Shown one piece after another: positions 45,766 to 61,386 of a stretch of 64,000 nucleotides of DNA. The DNA comes from Candidatus Cryosericum hinesii (lineage in GTDB: Bacteria > Caldisericota > Caldisericia > Cryosericales > Cryosericaceae), in contig NZ_QXIW01000016.1 of NCBI RefSeq assembly GCF_003570985.1, positions 5,895 through 69,894 of the forward strand, read 5' to 3'. The position numbers and the translations under genes are program-made. The notes below the pieces were generated by a model. That model searched no databases. It saw only the letters and a list, made by a program, of their open reading frames with translations, and was not told the origin of the DNA. Each line of letters begins with the position of its first letter. The stretch's first letter is position 1.

Positions 45766-46599
45766 TCAGCAGGAACTCTGCCGGGGATCTATTTTCATCG
45801 AGAACAACTCGGTTATGGTTGGTTGGTCACCACACACTCGGCACTGATGGTCACGTTCAAGTGGCACGAGCTCGAAGCGATTGTCCTCTCCATCCATGAG
45901 CAGCAGCTTGCCGGCCAGCCAGTCTCCACAACCCACAATGTACTTGAGCACGTTCTGTGCAACGATGGAACCGATGATGCCGGGAGTGGTGCCGAGAATG
46001 CCGCGAGCTCTCTCCTCGCGTGCCATCGCAGCAGTAGGAGACTTTGGGTACAGGCAACGGAAACAGGCTGTCGTTCGCGGGATGACCGTGAATGCCATTC
46101 CGTGGAGGTTGCTTACCGCACCGACAAACAGCGGCTTGCCAAAAAGAACAGCAGCGTCGGAAACGAGATATCGCGTGCTGTAGTTGTCTGTGGCATCGAC
46201 GACCATGTCGTAGGCGCTGAAAAGAGCATAGGCGTTGTCTGGATCCAGTCGACTGGGATAGGCCTCGACATGTATTTCCGGGTTCAGAGCCACCAACCGT
46301 TCCTTTGCGACAAGAGCCTTGGGTTGGCCGATGTCTCCCGTGGAATAGAGCACCTGCCGATTCAAATTGGACAAGCTCACGGTGTCTCCGTCGACCATTC
46401 CTATCGTACCCACTCCAGCGGCAGCGAGGCACAGCAGGATCGGGGAGCCGAGTCCTCCGGCTCCCACGACCAGAACAGACGCTTTTGCCAGCTTCCCCTG
46501 TCCCCGAGGGCCGACCTGTTTCATCCATAGTTGACGTTCATAGCGACCTCCGTCGGGAACCCCGCACGACGACGCCCGCACGTGTTTCGATGAAGTCAT
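45766..46599 (-). CDS. MoeB/ThiF/HesA-family adenylyltransferase (E1-like)
   Basis: This 277-residue protein adenylates the C-terminal glycine of a ubiquitin-fold sulfur carrier. It has the ATP site VVGAGGLGSP (44-53), DGDTVSLSNLNRQ (70-82), DATDN and two zinc pairs (C179/C182, C253/C256). The cysteine that forms the acyl-disulfide in ThiF is absent from the ARGILGTTPGIIG segment, so it resembles MoeB more. A likely partner is the MoaD-like carrier at 4.1 kb, the only one seen here. The start ATG at 46599 follows GGAGG and overlaps the stop of the carotenoid oxygenase (ATGA), an unusual partnership. The longer frame to 47337 is an artefact. Confidence 0.88.
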   Translation of the reverse strand: MTSSKHVRASSCGVPDGGRYERQLWMKQVGPRGQGKLAKASVLVVGAGGLGSPILLCLAAAGVGTIGMVDGDTVSLSNLNRQVLYSTGDIGQPKALVAKERLVALNPEIHVEAYPSRLDPDNAYALFSAYDMVVDATDNYSTRYLVSDAAVLFGKPLFVGAVSNLHGMAFTVIPRTTACFRCLYPKSPTAAMAREERARGILGTTPGIIGSIVAQNVLKYIVGCGDWLAGKLLLMDGEDNRFELVPLERDHQCRVCGDQPTITELFSMKIDPRQSSC

Positions 46600-47996
46600 G
46601 TTGTTGCCTCCTCCGATACAAAGAGTGCATGCAGTCCGAACGGTAGTGCGCAGGGAAGCCATGCGCGCGCTTGTTCGGTCATTGTTGCAGCATCCAGAAT
46701 CAGGGCAAATGAACGTTTTGCCAGAACATCGAGCACGATAGCCAGTAGCCAGCCTTCTCCTTCTGGGCCGTCCGTGGTCGCGGGAACAAAAATGGGAGCA
46801 CCGGGGAAACAGTTGTCGGACGACCAGGCGATGAATCGGCCGGTCGTCACGTCGGAACGGCACAACCGGTCGATCGGCTCGCCTGTTCTCGTTGGCCCCG
46901 CCGCGAACAGGATGGTGTGTGGGCGCATTGAGAATCTGACGTCTATTGTGCAGAACTCTCCTGGTGGGCACCTCAGTGGTGAGCAAAGGACTCGCTTGTG
47001 CTCCAGGTCGATGATGAGGCGGGTCGCCAGCGGAGCGGGAAAGTCGCCTGCAGGAACCTCTCCATGGTCGAAAGCCAGAGAGTCGAGGATGCTCGGATCC
47101 GGGTAGGCCGCAAGATCGACGATGATCTGATCTCCGTCGTCCCAGGCATTGATATGGTGAAGTGCGAACAGTGGGCGTGTGGAAAGTGTCGCCTTCAATG
47201 CACCGGTCCTCCGGTCGACGACCAGGACCCTGCTTCCTTGTCCCGCATCCCAGACATAATTTCGCAGATATGGACGTCTGGATGAACTCAGCGAGCGCGG
47301 ATATGCCGTGAAGGGCCCTTCGATGAGAATGACCCATCGTGGCGTCACACTGAAGGAGTGCATGTATCCAAGGCGCGAAGACGGGATAGCACAGAGGCGT
47401 CGCGTTCTTCCTTCAGGACTGGTGACTGTAATGACGTATCCAGCAGGATCCCTATTGCAGAGCGACAGGTCGAAGCGCTCTCCGGTGAGCTGGTCGAAGA
47501 CGGGGTGTGGCGAGGAGGCACAGCATCTGTGCAGGTGTGCCCATCGCCTTGTGCGTATTGTCGCCAGCGTTGCGGGATCGATCAAGATGCTCTGTGGCGT
47601 ATCGCCGAGAGCCTCGAGCTCGTGTCTCCAATGAGTGATGTTCATGTTGGCGTTGTCGTCGGAAAGATGACTGCACCGGTGGATGGACTGGGAGTCGAAA
47701 CCGCCAGCCGGCACGGCGTCTTTCGTCAGAGCCCGACGATACCAGGAACTTGCAAGAAAGCGGTTGCTGCAGGTGGCGCCGTGTGATCCAAAAGTTACTG
47801 ATGAGAGGAAGGCAAAGCCATCCAGCCAATGTCCAACACAGTGACCCCCAATCTGGAACCTGCCAGGGCCGATTCTGTACATGGTGCCGACAAGGCCGGG
47901 AGGAACAATTCCCGTAACGCTGAGGGGTACGCTGGACACTTCATCGAGAAGCGAAGTGAAACCAATGCTGTATCTGGGAGCAGATCCTGGGTTCAT
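46596..47996 (-). CDS. Carotenoid cleavage oxygenase (RPE65/ACO family)
   Basis: This 466-residue protein fits the seven-bladed propeller carotenoid oxygenases, non-heme iron enzymes that split carotenoids or apocarotenals, often to retinal. It has the N-terminal MYRIGPGRFQIGG and HWLDGFAFLSSVTF. Four candidate iron histidines are H164 (SPHPVFD), H213 (YMHSFSVTP), H280/H281 (FALHHINAW) and H456 (PFGLHALFV), each in the right family context. GEGWLLAIVLDVLAKRSFALILDA matches the last blade. It needs O2, which contrasts with the anaerobic enzymes nearby. With a heliorhodopsin 36 kb away, retinal synthesis is the obvious candidate role, but the substrate is not proven. It is cysteine-rich for the family. 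No Shine-Dalgarno is clear; its stop is coupled to the MoeB-like gene. Confidence 0.88.
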   Translation of the reverse strand: MNPGSAPRYSIGFTSLLDEVSSVPLSVTGIVPPGLVGTMYRIGPGRFQIGGHCVGHWLDGFAFLSSVTFGSHGATCSNRFLASSWYRRALTKDAVPAGGFDSQSIHRCSHLSDDNANMNITHWRHELEALGDTPQSILIDPATLATIRTRRWAHLHRCCASSPHPVFDQLTGERFDLSLCNRDPAGYVITVTSPEGRTRRLCAIPSSRLGYMHSFSVTPRWVILIEGPFTAYPRSLSSSRRPYLRNYVWDAGQGSRVLVVDRRTGALKATLSTRPLFALHHINAWDDGDQIIVDLAAYPDPSILDSLAFDHGEVPAGDFPAPLATRLIIDLEHKRVLCSPLRCPPGEFCTIDVRFSMRPHTILFAAGPTRTGEPIDRLCRSDVTTGRFIAWSSDNCFPGAPIFVPATTDGPEGEGWLLAIVLDVLAKRSFALILDAATMTEQARAWLPCALPFGLHALFVSEEATT

Positions 47997-48057
47997 GGCC
48001 GCTCGATAGCACGGAGAAATGTGCGAAATGACGATAACTCCAGCATCTGTCTAATGC

Positions 48058-48148
48058 TGGCGGAGAGGGTGGGATTTGAACCCACGAACGAGGGAACCCC
48101 GTCACCTGCTTTCGAGGCAGGCGCTTTCAACCGCTCAGCCACCTCTCC
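48058..48148 (-). tRNA. tRNA-Ser (anticodon CGA)
   Basis: A 91-base class II tRNA with acceptor GGAGAGG/CCTCTCC, anticodon loop CTCGAAA (CGA, reads UCG), long variable arm, G discriminator and encoded CCA. Its first 14 bases are also the last codons and stop of tadA. Confidence 0.95.
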
Positions 48149-48605
48149 GTTTGGACCTGATACGTGCAAAGAACTGCTGCAGGACAGCTTCGGCATCAGC
48201 GCGCAACAAACCAGAAACCACCTCCGGAGCATATCCAAAGATAGGCCGTGTAAGCATGTTGCCATTGCTGCCGACTGCTCCATTGTCGAAATCGTACGCT
48301 GAGAAAACCACCCGCTGTACCCTCGCAAGAGCTATTGCGCCAGCACACATCGGACACGGCTCGAGAGTAACGTACAGGACGCATCCGTCCAAACGCCAAT
48401 CTTGCAGACGCTCGGCACTGGAGCGCAACGCGAGCATCTCGGCATGTGCCGTTGGGTCCTTGGCGCTCTCTCGCGTGTTATGTGCAGAAGCAAGCAATTC
48501 ACCAGCCCTTGTAACAACACATCCCACAGGGATCTCTCCTTCATCAAGGGCACGCCTGGCCTCATCAAGCGCAAGAAGCATGCAATCAACATCAGTGAGA
48601 GCCAT
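48135..48605 (-). CDS. tadA: tRNA-specific adenosine deaminase
   Basis: This 156-residue zinc enzyme deaminates the wobble adenosine of tRNA-Arg(ACG) to inosine. The zinc and catalytic residues are H54-A-E56 and P83-C84-P-M-C87 (LEPCPMCAGA). The N-terminal EIPVGCVVT is conserved. It starts only eight bases after the 3' CCA of tRNA-Arg(ACG), its known substrate, on the same strand, with no Shine-Dalgarno. Its final codons overlap the 5' end of tRNA-Ser(CGA) by 14 bases. Both neighbours are tRNAs to be cut out, so processing would define and perhaps destroy the tadA mRNA. Confidence 0.95.
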   Translation of the reverse strand: MALTDVDCMLLALDEARRALDEGEIPVGCVVTRAGELLASAHNTRESAKDPTAHAEMLALRSSAERLQDWRLDGCVLYVTLEPCPMCAGAIALARVQRVVFSAYDFDNGAVGSNGNMLTRPIFGYAPEVVSGLLRADAEAVLQQFFARIRSKRRGG

Positions 48606-48613
48606 GTCAGGAC

Positions 48614-48690
48614 TGGTGCGCCCGACAGGAATCGAACCTGTAACCTACGGTTCCGTAGACCGTCACTCTATCCAGTTGAGCTACGGGCGC
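48614..48690 (-). tRNA. tRNA-Arg (anticodon ACG), TadA substrate
   Basis: A 77-base cloverleaf with acceptor GCGCCCG/CGGGCGC, anticodon loop CTACGGA (ACG, A34 to become inosine), TTCGATT T-loop and encoded CCA. It is the first gene of the tRNA-tadA-tRNA unit. Confidence 0.96.
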
Positions 48691-48699
48691 GCAACGATG

Positions 48700-48727
48700 A
48701 TTGTATTCCATTTCCCCCGGTTGGCAA
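48700..48727 (-). promoter_or_regulatory. Promoter of tRNA-Arg(ACG)-tadA-tRNA-Ser
   Basis: On the minus strand TTGCCA (48722-48727) and TACAAT (48700-48705) are 16 bases apart, giving a start about three bases before the tRNA. Confidence 0.6.
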
Positions 48728-48779
48728 GAAGAACAGTGAGGATTGCTGAGCAACGTGGCAGTAGTGACGCGCACAAATC

Positions 48780-48788
48780 TGTTATAAT
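48780..48788 (+). promoter_or_regulatory. Extended -10 promoter, four-base leader
   Basis: TGTTATAAT is an extended -10 element. The expected start at 48795 leaves only four bases before the ATG at 48799, and there is no Shine-Dalgarno. Confidence 0.55.
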
Positions 48789-48798
48789 CTACCTGCCG

Positions 48799-50079
48799 AT
48801 GGAAACAAGAGCTGAGGTTTGTGTCATAGGTGGTGGTGCAGCCGGGATGCTGGCGGCATTGTCTGCCGCAAGGCACCTCAAAGCCTGTGGCCACGGTGGC
48901 TCAGTCCTCATCCTGGAACGGAATCGGGTGCTGGGCAGGAAGCTGGCCATCACGGGCAAGGGCAGGGCAAACGTGACCAATGCGCGTTCACTGGACGAGT
49001 TTGTCCAGGCCTTCGGTCCTTCCGGCCGATTCCTCTACCCGGCTTTCGAGTCCTTTTTCTCCGATGACCTTGTCGCTTTCTTTGCCGAAGCCGGCCTGCA
49101 ACTCAAGACGGAGCGGGGTGGTCGAGTGTTCCCTGTGACGGACAAGGCGCAGGACGTTGTCCAGGCTTTCGGGCTGCTGCTCGTGCGAGACGGTGTTGAT
49201 ATCCTCTACTCGGCTCGGGTCCGAAGTATCGATGCCGGGTCCGAGGGTTGGACGATCGGTTTGGAGTCTGGCGGGTTGTTGCACTGCCGGGCCGTGGTCA
49301 TTGCCACAGGTGGAAAATCGTATCCTGGTACAGGGTCGACAGGAGACGGATATGAGCTTCTTGAGCACGTGGGTCATCACCCGGGTCGCCTGCTGCCTGG
49401 CCTGGTTTCCCTGCACTGTCCCGAGAAGTGGCTGAGAGAACTTGCAGGGGTCTCGCTCGAGGGTGTCGCCGTGGAGGCGTGGGTTGGCCCTAGGTTATTG
49501 GCTCGAAGGCAGGGGGAAGTCATGATAACGGACCGAGGGATTGGAGGTCCGGCCGTCCTGTCGCTGAGTCTGGCCGTCACCCCTGCTCTAGCCGAGAGCC
49601 AGGCTGTCGTTCTGTGCTTGGACATGCGGCCCGAGAAGACGTTGGACCAGGAGCTTCATGACATCGAAGCTTGCGGAAATGCCAATGAAATCCTGATGAA
49701 TGTCTCGAGGTTTCTTCCGAAGCGGATGGCGCTTGAGCTGATGCGTATGTGGGGCATTGAGGGGAAGGGCAGCACACCGTTACCCAGGAAAACCCTTGCA
49801 GCAATCGCCCGATCAATCAAGGGAGTGGAGCTGAAATGCACAGGGGCCGACCCTCTCGCCTCCGCGATCATCACACAGGGGGGAGTGCCTCTGCGAGAGG
49901 TTGACCCGCGATCCATGGGATCGAGACTCGTTCCCGGATTGTTCATTGCAGGCGAGCTTCTGGACCTGCAGGCTGTCACCGGTGGCTATAATCTGCAGGC
50001 AGCTTTCTCGACAGGATTTCTCGCCGGAAGGTGTGCGGCCGAATACGTTGCCAAATCACCAAATGACAGTAAACTTTAA
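48799..50079 (+). CDS. HI0933/YhiN/BaiN-family FAD-dependent oxidoreductase
   Basis: This 426-residue flavoprotein starts with the dinucleotide-binding motif VCVIGGGAAGMLAALSAA. Family signatures follow: GRKLAITGKGRANVTN, RGGRVFPVTDKAQDV, VIATGGKSYPGTGSTGDGY, ITDRGIGGPAVLSLS and, near the C-terminus, AGELLDLQAVTGGYNLQAAFSTGFLAGR. Members of this family include a bile-acid flavoprotein, but the general substrate is unknown, so I give no specific function. The ATG at 48799 sits four bases after the predicted transcription start. The pdxS gene follows after 22 bases with its own possible promoter. Confidence 0.9.
   Translation: METRAEVCVIGGGAAGMLAALSAARHLKACGHGGSVLILERNRVLGRKLAITGKGRANVTNARSLDEFVQAFGPSGRFLYPAFESFFSDDLVAFFAEAGLQLKTERGGRVFPVTDKAQDVVQAFGLLLVRDGVDILYSARVRSIDAGSEGWTIGLESGGLLHCRAVVIATGGKSYPGTGSTGDGYELLEHVGHHPGRLLPGLVSLHCPEKWLRELAGVSLEGVAVEAWVGPRLLARRQGEVMITDRGIGGPAVLSLSLAVTPALAESQAVVLCLDMRPEKTLDQELHDIEACGNANEILMNVSRFLPKRMALELMRMWGIEGKGSTPLPRKTLAAIARSIKGVELKCTGADPLASAIITQGGVPLREVDPRSMGSRLVPGLFIAGELLDLQAVTGGYNLQAAFSTGFLAGRCAAEYVAKSPNDSKL
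50048..50075 (+). promoter_or_regulatory. Possible promoter of the pdxS operon
   Basis: TTGCCA (50048-50053) and TAAACT (50070-50075) are 16 bases apart at the 3' end of the preceding gene. GAGGTG before pdxS lies within the short leader. Confidence 0.4.
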
Positions 50080-61119: not shown

Positions 61120-61386
61120 GCCGTACGCTGAGCACTTGTTGCGCAGACCTCCGGCGTGGTCGACTGTCTCCGGCTCCAGTTGCATCGGGCCACGGCACAT
61201 GTTCTACTCAGTACTGTTGCTTCCTTCCGGACCTGGCAGAGTTCAGAGCTTCCCATTGCATGGTTTGCAGCCTTCAACGCCTTCAACAGGGACTGTTTCG
61301 GAAACGTGCGCCCCGCATGCTCAGCATGGACCCCGGTGAGCGGATTCCGGGCAACAGGGCACCGCTGTCTCCCCGTCCTGTACGGC
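61120..61386 (-). ncRNA. ffs: Signal recognition particle RNA, large type with Alu domain
   Basis: This 267-base RNA starts GCCGTAC and ends GTACGGC, which pair as the closing helix, and is followed by CCTTTTC. The 5' part carries the Alu-domain pattern of Bacillus-type SRP RNA (GGGGAGACAGCGGTGCCCTG near the 5' end). The helix 8 core CCAGGTCCGGAAGGAAGCAA, the Ffh-binding site, lies near 61220-61245. Length is near the 271 bases of the Bacillus form and far longer than 4.5S RNA. It guides ribosomes making membrane proteins to the membrane. Confidence 0.95.

Follow-up and report, generated by a model that had tools for sequence, protein, structure and literature searches.

The window analysed, 64,000 nucleotides of Candidatus Cryosericum hinesii (G000:C8:5895-69894), belongs to a genome of 1.94 Mb in 39 contigs that is 80% complete (G000). 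On its minus strand a tRNA-Arg(ACG) gene is followed at short distance by tadA (encoding tRNA adenosine(34) deaminase), and the end of tadA lies within the gene for tRNA-Ser(CGA) (Table 1), the final tadA codons and the TGA stop being at the same time the start of the acceptor stem and D arm of the tRNA. Both tRNA genes are present in single copy among the 46 tRNA genes of the genome, all of which carry an encoded CCA. No Shine-Dalgarno sequence precedes the ATG of tadA in the sequence; neighbouring genes such as pdxS (GAGGTGA) and yebC (AGGAGGT) do have one. This layout, i.e. the 8-nt gap, the missing ribosome-binding site and the 14-nt overlap that includes the stop codon, had been described in the initial annotation of the region and was confirmed by ARAGORN, by Rfam model RF00005 and by the sequence itself. 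Further downstream on the strand of tRNA-Ser (45766-47996) lie the genes for an RPE65-like carotenoid oxygenase and then a ThiF-family protein. Elsewhere in the window we found a bacterial large SRP RNA (61121-61385, minus strand, RF01854, 102 bits).

Table 1. Features of the tRNA-Arg(ACG)-tadA-tRNA-Ser(CGA) locus, in window coordinates
Feature	Position	Strand	Evidence
Promoter-like site TTGCCA-16-TACAAT, ahead of tRNA-Arg	48700..48727	minus	promoter scan
tRNA-Arg(ACG), encoded CCA	48614..48690	minus	ARAGORN; Rfam RF00005, 67.3 bits
Spacer GTCCTGAC, 8 nt, from tRNA-Arg CCA to tadA ATG	48606..48613	minus	sequence
tadA, tRNA adenosine(34) deaminase, 156 aa, ATG start, TGA stop	48135..48605	minus	ORF and domains
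tadA/tRNA-Ser overlap GGAGAGGTGGCTGA, 14 nt	48135..48148	minus	sequence
tRNA-Ser(CGA), encoded CCA	48058..48148	minus	ARAGORN; Rfam RF00005, 63.7 bits
Possible 7-bp hairpin CCAGCAT-N7-ATGCTGG	48040..48060	minus	sequence
RPE65-like carotenoid oxygenase gene, 61 nt 3' of tRNA-Ser	46596..47996	minus	PF03055, 3.5e-88

The wobble inosine of bacterial tRNA-Arg is made by TadA, and to our knowledge little is known about how the amount of this enzyme is controlled. The tadA product scores over the cut-off for two deaminase domains (PF14437, 7e-32 and PF00383, 4e-28), and the HAE and PCxMC residues (zinc motif PCxxC) are invariant in an alignment of 14 sequences. No model scored higher than NF008113 for TadA (132.5 bits, E 1.2e-38), at a score under its cut-off of 150 bits and in a phylum that is distant. 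The product is the sole TadA match in the genome, and the TadA of the nearest named record ('Caldiserica bacterium' from Lake Pavin, L031) is 96% identical. By its domains and motifs the protein is TadA, with a predicted A34-to-inosine activity; tRNA-Arg(ACG) is its expected substrate and tRNA-Ser(CGA), having C34, is not a substrate. In the genus TadA may have tRNA-Leu(AAG) as a second substrate, since the gene for this tRNA is present in G000 outside the window (G000:C8:94703-94787, minus strand, L299; also L113 and L156) and no tRNA-Leu(GAG) was found in that genome. All 11 genus loci that were read have the AAG form, as does most of family f3, and others have the GAG form; tRNA-Leu(AAG) genes have been described as nearly confined to Bacilli, plus Mycoplasma and Prochlorococcus (PMC13249217). 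Neither protein search nor PF14437 found a TadA in several other genomes (G024, G032, G037, G040, G041, G042 and G046 of family f3, G034 of family f6, and also G028 and G035). In all eight of these genomes of which the tRNAs were read tRNA-Arg(ACG) was kept, and tRNA-Leu(AAG) was found in several.

We observed that the distance between tRNA-Arg and tadA is 8 nt in every one of the 15 genus genomes, with a spacer sequence that varies, and that the 14-nt overlap is present in all 14 in which the 3' end of tadA is readable (in G007, L011, a contig end interrupts the locus). This includes G002, where tadA is split across two contig ends and both the spacing and the overlap are kept. Such constancy throughout the genus shows that neither is due to chance. 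Among the 13 Caldisericota genera that have tRNA-Ser(CGA) beside tadA, nine, from five families, share the 14-nt overlap (outside the genus g2 and g9 of f2, g3, g17 and g6 of f3, g11 of f5, and g20 and g21 of f7). Other states were found as well: in g14 an overlap of 22 nt (L019) and a stop codon abutting the tRNA at a contig end (L018), and gaps of 8 nt (L022, g15), 55 nt (L162, g8) and 42 nt (L328, g5) where there is no overlap. In Caldisericota beyond the genus, tadA mostly lacks an upstream tRNA-Arg; in family f4 tRNA-Arg(ACG) lies 9 nt (g7) or 28 nt (g4, L111) before tadA and no tRNA-Ser adjoins the gene. A tight tadA/tRNA-Ser overlap is typical of Caldisericota. The initial annotation had named a lack of the overlap in close relatives as grounds for refutation, and on this count it was not refuted, the overlap going phylum-deep. 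In the lineages that share the 14-nt overlap the TadA tail past the conserved FF is 6, 7, 10 or 14 residues long, indicating that the position of the stop was kept and the tail was not, and one-step nonsense mutations that could end the overlap are available in all lineages but L112.

The promoter-like site ends 9 nt before tRNA-Arg and would place the start of the RNA near 48693, with a 5' leader of about 3 nt. It was the sole promoter-like site in 47900-48900, where 0.6 would be expected by chance, and its -35 and -10 motifs are conserved in the genus members that have the region, the flanks and, in diverged members, also the promoter spacer having changed. Within the cluster the scan gave no such site. 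A leaderless promoter within tRNA-Arg was considered and rejected, as no TANNNT was seen by eye at the right distance and the scan found none. With a conserved promoter motif only before tRNA-Arg and none evident inside, a single transcript through tRNA-Arg, tadA and tRNA-Ser is likely, and the earlier suggestion that enzyme and substrate are made from one transcript is very probably right. The same evidence bears on the view that tRNA-Ser and tadA are transcribed from weak promoters of their own inside the preceding gene and that the overlap is without effect, which we think distinctly unlikely. The 5' regions of tRNA-Ser genes often hold a TGA that would catch ORFs losing their stop, and overlap lengths differ between unrelated lineages, as neutral packing would have it, but the internal promoters it calls for were not found by the scan, the end of tadA has no extra conservation before the tRNA, and the 8 nt after tRNA-Arg are too short for a terminator.

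Beyond tRNA-Ser no convincing terminator was found. The possible hairpin in Table 1, which has the tRNA-Ser CCA at the start of its 5' arm, is present in most genus members and missing from the more diverged ones, and lacking a T-run it would be a poor terminator; as a conserved terminator it was rejected, being lost in L012-L014 and absent from the terminator predictions. It might impede 3' processing. As there is no clear terminator, the carotenoid oxygenase gene is possibly part of the same operon. On folding of the long RNA the acceptor pairs of tRNA-Ser had probabilities of 0.85-0.99, in context as alone, and those of tRNA-Arg of about 0.5. Neither around the start of tadA nor at tRNA-Ser did the folding show a competing RNA structure or a switch, and a pairing of CCTGAC in the spacer with the T stem of tRNA-Arg was discarded because it is not kept in L014 or L025.

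We also looked for the processing and rescue machinery in the 15 genus genomes. A full-length tmRNA was found above cut-off in nine of them, G000 included, and an RNase J-type protein above cut-off in 12. RNase Z gave no full match in any of the 15 (controls matched 14/14) and RNase E/G gave partial matches only (<20 bits). RNase Z was accordingly dismissed as the enzyme freeing the tadA message. The nearly leaderless tadA mRNA proposed in the initial annotation, which needs an endonuclease cutting at the 3' end of tRNA-Arg, finds no support in these genomes, where neither RNase Z nor RNase E/G was found. At the other end of the gene, 3' exonuclease trimming from the cut at tRNA-Ser could destroy the tadA RNA equally well.

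To place the locus in a wider context, 386 genomes were searched, sampled across the Bacteria and mostly limited to one or a few per family. The set outside Caldisericota consisted of 102 tadA loci (100 fetched loci plus L023 and L030) in which tRNAs were identified with ARAGORN; these loci were drawn from the best-scoring matches, nearly one per family, and the rates that follow are thus not unbiased. A same-strand tRNA-Arg(ACG) was found within 300 nt upstream of tadA in 28 loci. The 400 nt downstream hold a tRNA-Ser in 51 (tRNA-Ser(CGA) in 41), and a tRNA near tadA lies on the opposite strand in only 2. In 21 of the 102 loci both a tRNA-Arg(ACG) upstream and a tRNA-Ser downstream were found, in the same order and on the same strand as in the locus described here, but these clusters usually have spacers of tens of nucleotides and rarely an overlap. 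Several loci have a fuller cluster, Ser(UGA)-Ser(GCU)-Arg(ACG)-tadA-Ser(CGA)-Ser(GGA), to which Ala(CGC) is added in some. In the set of 80 named loci, Elusimicrobia (L074) and Poribacteria (L081) have tRNA-Arg(ACG) before tadA, and many loci have tRNA-Ser(CGA) after it.

Overlaps of tadA and tRNA-Ser outside the phylum were found in three of the 102 loci (L194, -48; L209, -57; L240, -47), all longer than 14 nt, and in the named set in L098 (Planctomycetales, -14) and L110 (Nitrospirae, -23). With start codons assigned by rule, spacings of at most 10 nt between tRNA-Arg(ACG) and the ATG without a Shine-Dalgarno sequence were found in L260 (2 nt), L254 (6 nt), L023 (7 nt), the window (8 nt), family f4 (9 nt) and L175 (9 nt); the remaining tRNA-Arg(ACG)-tadA loci have spacings of 13-231 nt, a few of them with a Shine-Dalgarno sequence. 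As most clusters elsewhere are spaced more widely and do not overlap, function there does not depend on the tight form.

The identity of the upstream tRNA could be taken to suggest that TadA, by binding the unprocessed tRNA-Arg or editing its A34, alters the translation or decay of its own message in cis and that the linkage is kept for this reason. We consider such feedback very improbable. In other phyla 29 loci have an upstream tRNA, and in 27 of these the nearest one is indeed Arg(ACG). Some named Bacillota loci (L064, L068, L084), though, have tRNA-Arg(CCT) in this place, a tRNA that is no substrate of TadA. Ser and Ala tRNAs, likewise unedited by TadA, are frequent members of the cluster as well, so that the linkage is explained simply by an ancestral cluster of tRNAs. 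On a tree of TadA the upstream tRNA-Arg is scattered (23 changes are needed for 31 positives); the protein is short and the tree weakly resolved, and we use it as an indication of wide scatter only and not as a dating of the linkage. Because order and strand are so constant, an ancestral linkage with many losses fits best, repeated gain being the alternative. The order tRNA-Arg(ACG)-tadA-tRNA-Ser represents an old and widespread bacterial cluster that is far older than the overlap. Literature searches by title and full text, with subscription papers mostly outside their reach, gave no description of a tRNA-tadA cluster, and its newness is for that reason provisional; the passages of two TadA papers (PMC3711424 and PMC11472039) around operon and neighbourhood terms likewise contain no such cluster.

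The arrangement is real and deeply conserved, and is most likely a compacted ancestral tRNA operon, i.e. a compacted form of the old tRNA-Arg(ACG)-tadA-tRNA-Ser(CGA) cluster. The promoter directly before tRNA-Arg would give one RNA across the three genes, and probably beyond, from which RNase P and other nucleases would release the two tRNAs. In the order of events that we infer, TadA would be translated from this RNA before or during processing, and the cut of RNase P at tRNA-Ser would leave a stop-less tadA RNA as a dead end, with tmRNA available for ribosome rescue. The overlap would in this way limit the lifetime of the tadA message and bound the TadA output per transcript; with translation early and the RNA a dead end afterwards, TadA output would be low and would track transcription of the substrate tRNA. 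We think it reasonably probable that this limiting effect is a by-product of compaction, tolerated by a catalytic enzyme, and that there is no dedicated switch. The fixed spacing and overlap across the genus, the recurrence of order and strand in many bacterial families, the promoter motif found only before tRNA-Arg, the lack of a competing RNA fold and the presence of tmRNA are all in line with compaction, as are the overlaps of other lengths elsewhere (-22, -23, -47, -48 and -57): the D arm of tRNA-Ser often offers a TGA at which an ORF that has lost its stop is caught, and varied lengths are then to be expected. What counts against it is that the 14-nt overlap extends over several families with tails of 6 to 14 residues although nearly all could leave it by a single nonsense mutation, a persistence greater than simple neutrality might predict, and that the length of the spacer is fixed across the genus.

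That persistence, which is phylum-deep, speaks for a selected switch, in which RNase P cutting at tRNA-Ser would set how much intact tadA message survives, a near-leaderless start after release of tRNA-Arg would tie TadA synthesis to tRNA processing, and the TadA level would be balanced against tRNA maturation. The invariant 8 nt in the genus, the recurrence of short spacings without a Shine-Dalgarno sequence in the unrelated L023, L175, L254 and L260 and in family f4, and the same type of model proposed for selB/tRNA-Sec (PMC8124441) would fit it too. We nevertheless regard a selected switch as unlikely. The overlap is missing in some relatives (g15, g8, g5), most cluster-bearing lineages have wider spacings without overlap, and RNase Z and RNase E/G were not found in the 15 genus genomes. 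Two further objections concern the form given to this model in the initial annotation, in which each transcript yields either tRNA-Ser or an intact tadA message. The stop codon indeed sits within the overlap, so an RNase P cut at tRNA-Ser would take it away and no TadA would be made after the cut, but TadA can be made before the cut and the choice is not a strict one. The built-in balance that was proposed along with it is not supported as one of enzyme and substrate: tRNA-Ser(CGA), the tRNA in the overlap, is no substrate of TadA, and a trade-off with that tRNA does not couple TadA to tRNA-Arg; a balance of enzyme and substrate follows loosely from co-transcription and not from the overlap. 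That processing at both ends sets TadA synthesis, the stop in tRNA-Ser being kept in Caldisericota and the 8-nt start in the genus as parts of a phylum-conserved device on an ancient enzyme-substrate operon, strikes us as rather unlikely.

Mohanty and Kushner are said to have described, in 2008, mixed mRNA-tRNA operons such as secG-leuU of E. coli. As generally understood, that operon resembles the locus described here in having a protein gene and then a tRNA on one transcript, with RNase P separating them; we know of no overlap of reading frame and tRNA there, and the mRNA keeps its stop. The nearest precedent for tadA/tRNA-Ser is tRNA-Sec (selC) overlapping selB. In Alphaproteobacteria, Gammaproteobacteria and Nitrospirae selC is nested in or overlaps selB (Mukai 2021, PMC8124441), and for Dyella and Luteibacter a selB stop inside tRNA-Sec was described; an RNase P cut has been proposed to leave the upstream mRNA nonstop and the downstream one leaderless, and alternative expression of selB and tRNA-Sec has been put forward as a hypothesis (PMC8124441). 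This overlap is conserved yet lost in some relatives, and partial overlaps were described as well (PMC8124441). Common to both cases is a tRNA-related protein gene whose 3' end, with the stop codon, lies in a tRNA gene of the same strand. Unlike a whole tRNA nested in selB, tadA overlaps only 14 of the 91 nt of tRNA-Ser, and the protein's partner is not, as with tRNA-Sec, the tRNA in the overlap but tRNA-Arg, which lies upstream without overlap. In a selCAB operon cited in PMC8124441, the 3' end of tRNA-Sec lies at position -2 relative to the start codon of selA. The same paper cites the compact mitochondrial genome of Armadillidium vulgare, where tRNAs overlap protein genes; going by that citation, the overlap makes tRNA and mRNA compete as it would at tadA, but in an organelle with other processing enzymes and extreme compaction. 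The tadA case further differs from selB/selC in covering most of a phylum with small genomes.

The occurrence of the cluster over many bacterial families represents a simple way in which the supply of an enzyme and that of its substrate could be linked. The overlap of tadA with tRNA-Ser would be a second example, beside selB/tRNA-Sec, of a tRNA-metabolism gene with a message that would be lost when the tRNA at its end matures. This loss is a prediction from sequence, and in the tadA case the arrangement that would bring it about is held over most of the phylum Caldisericota.
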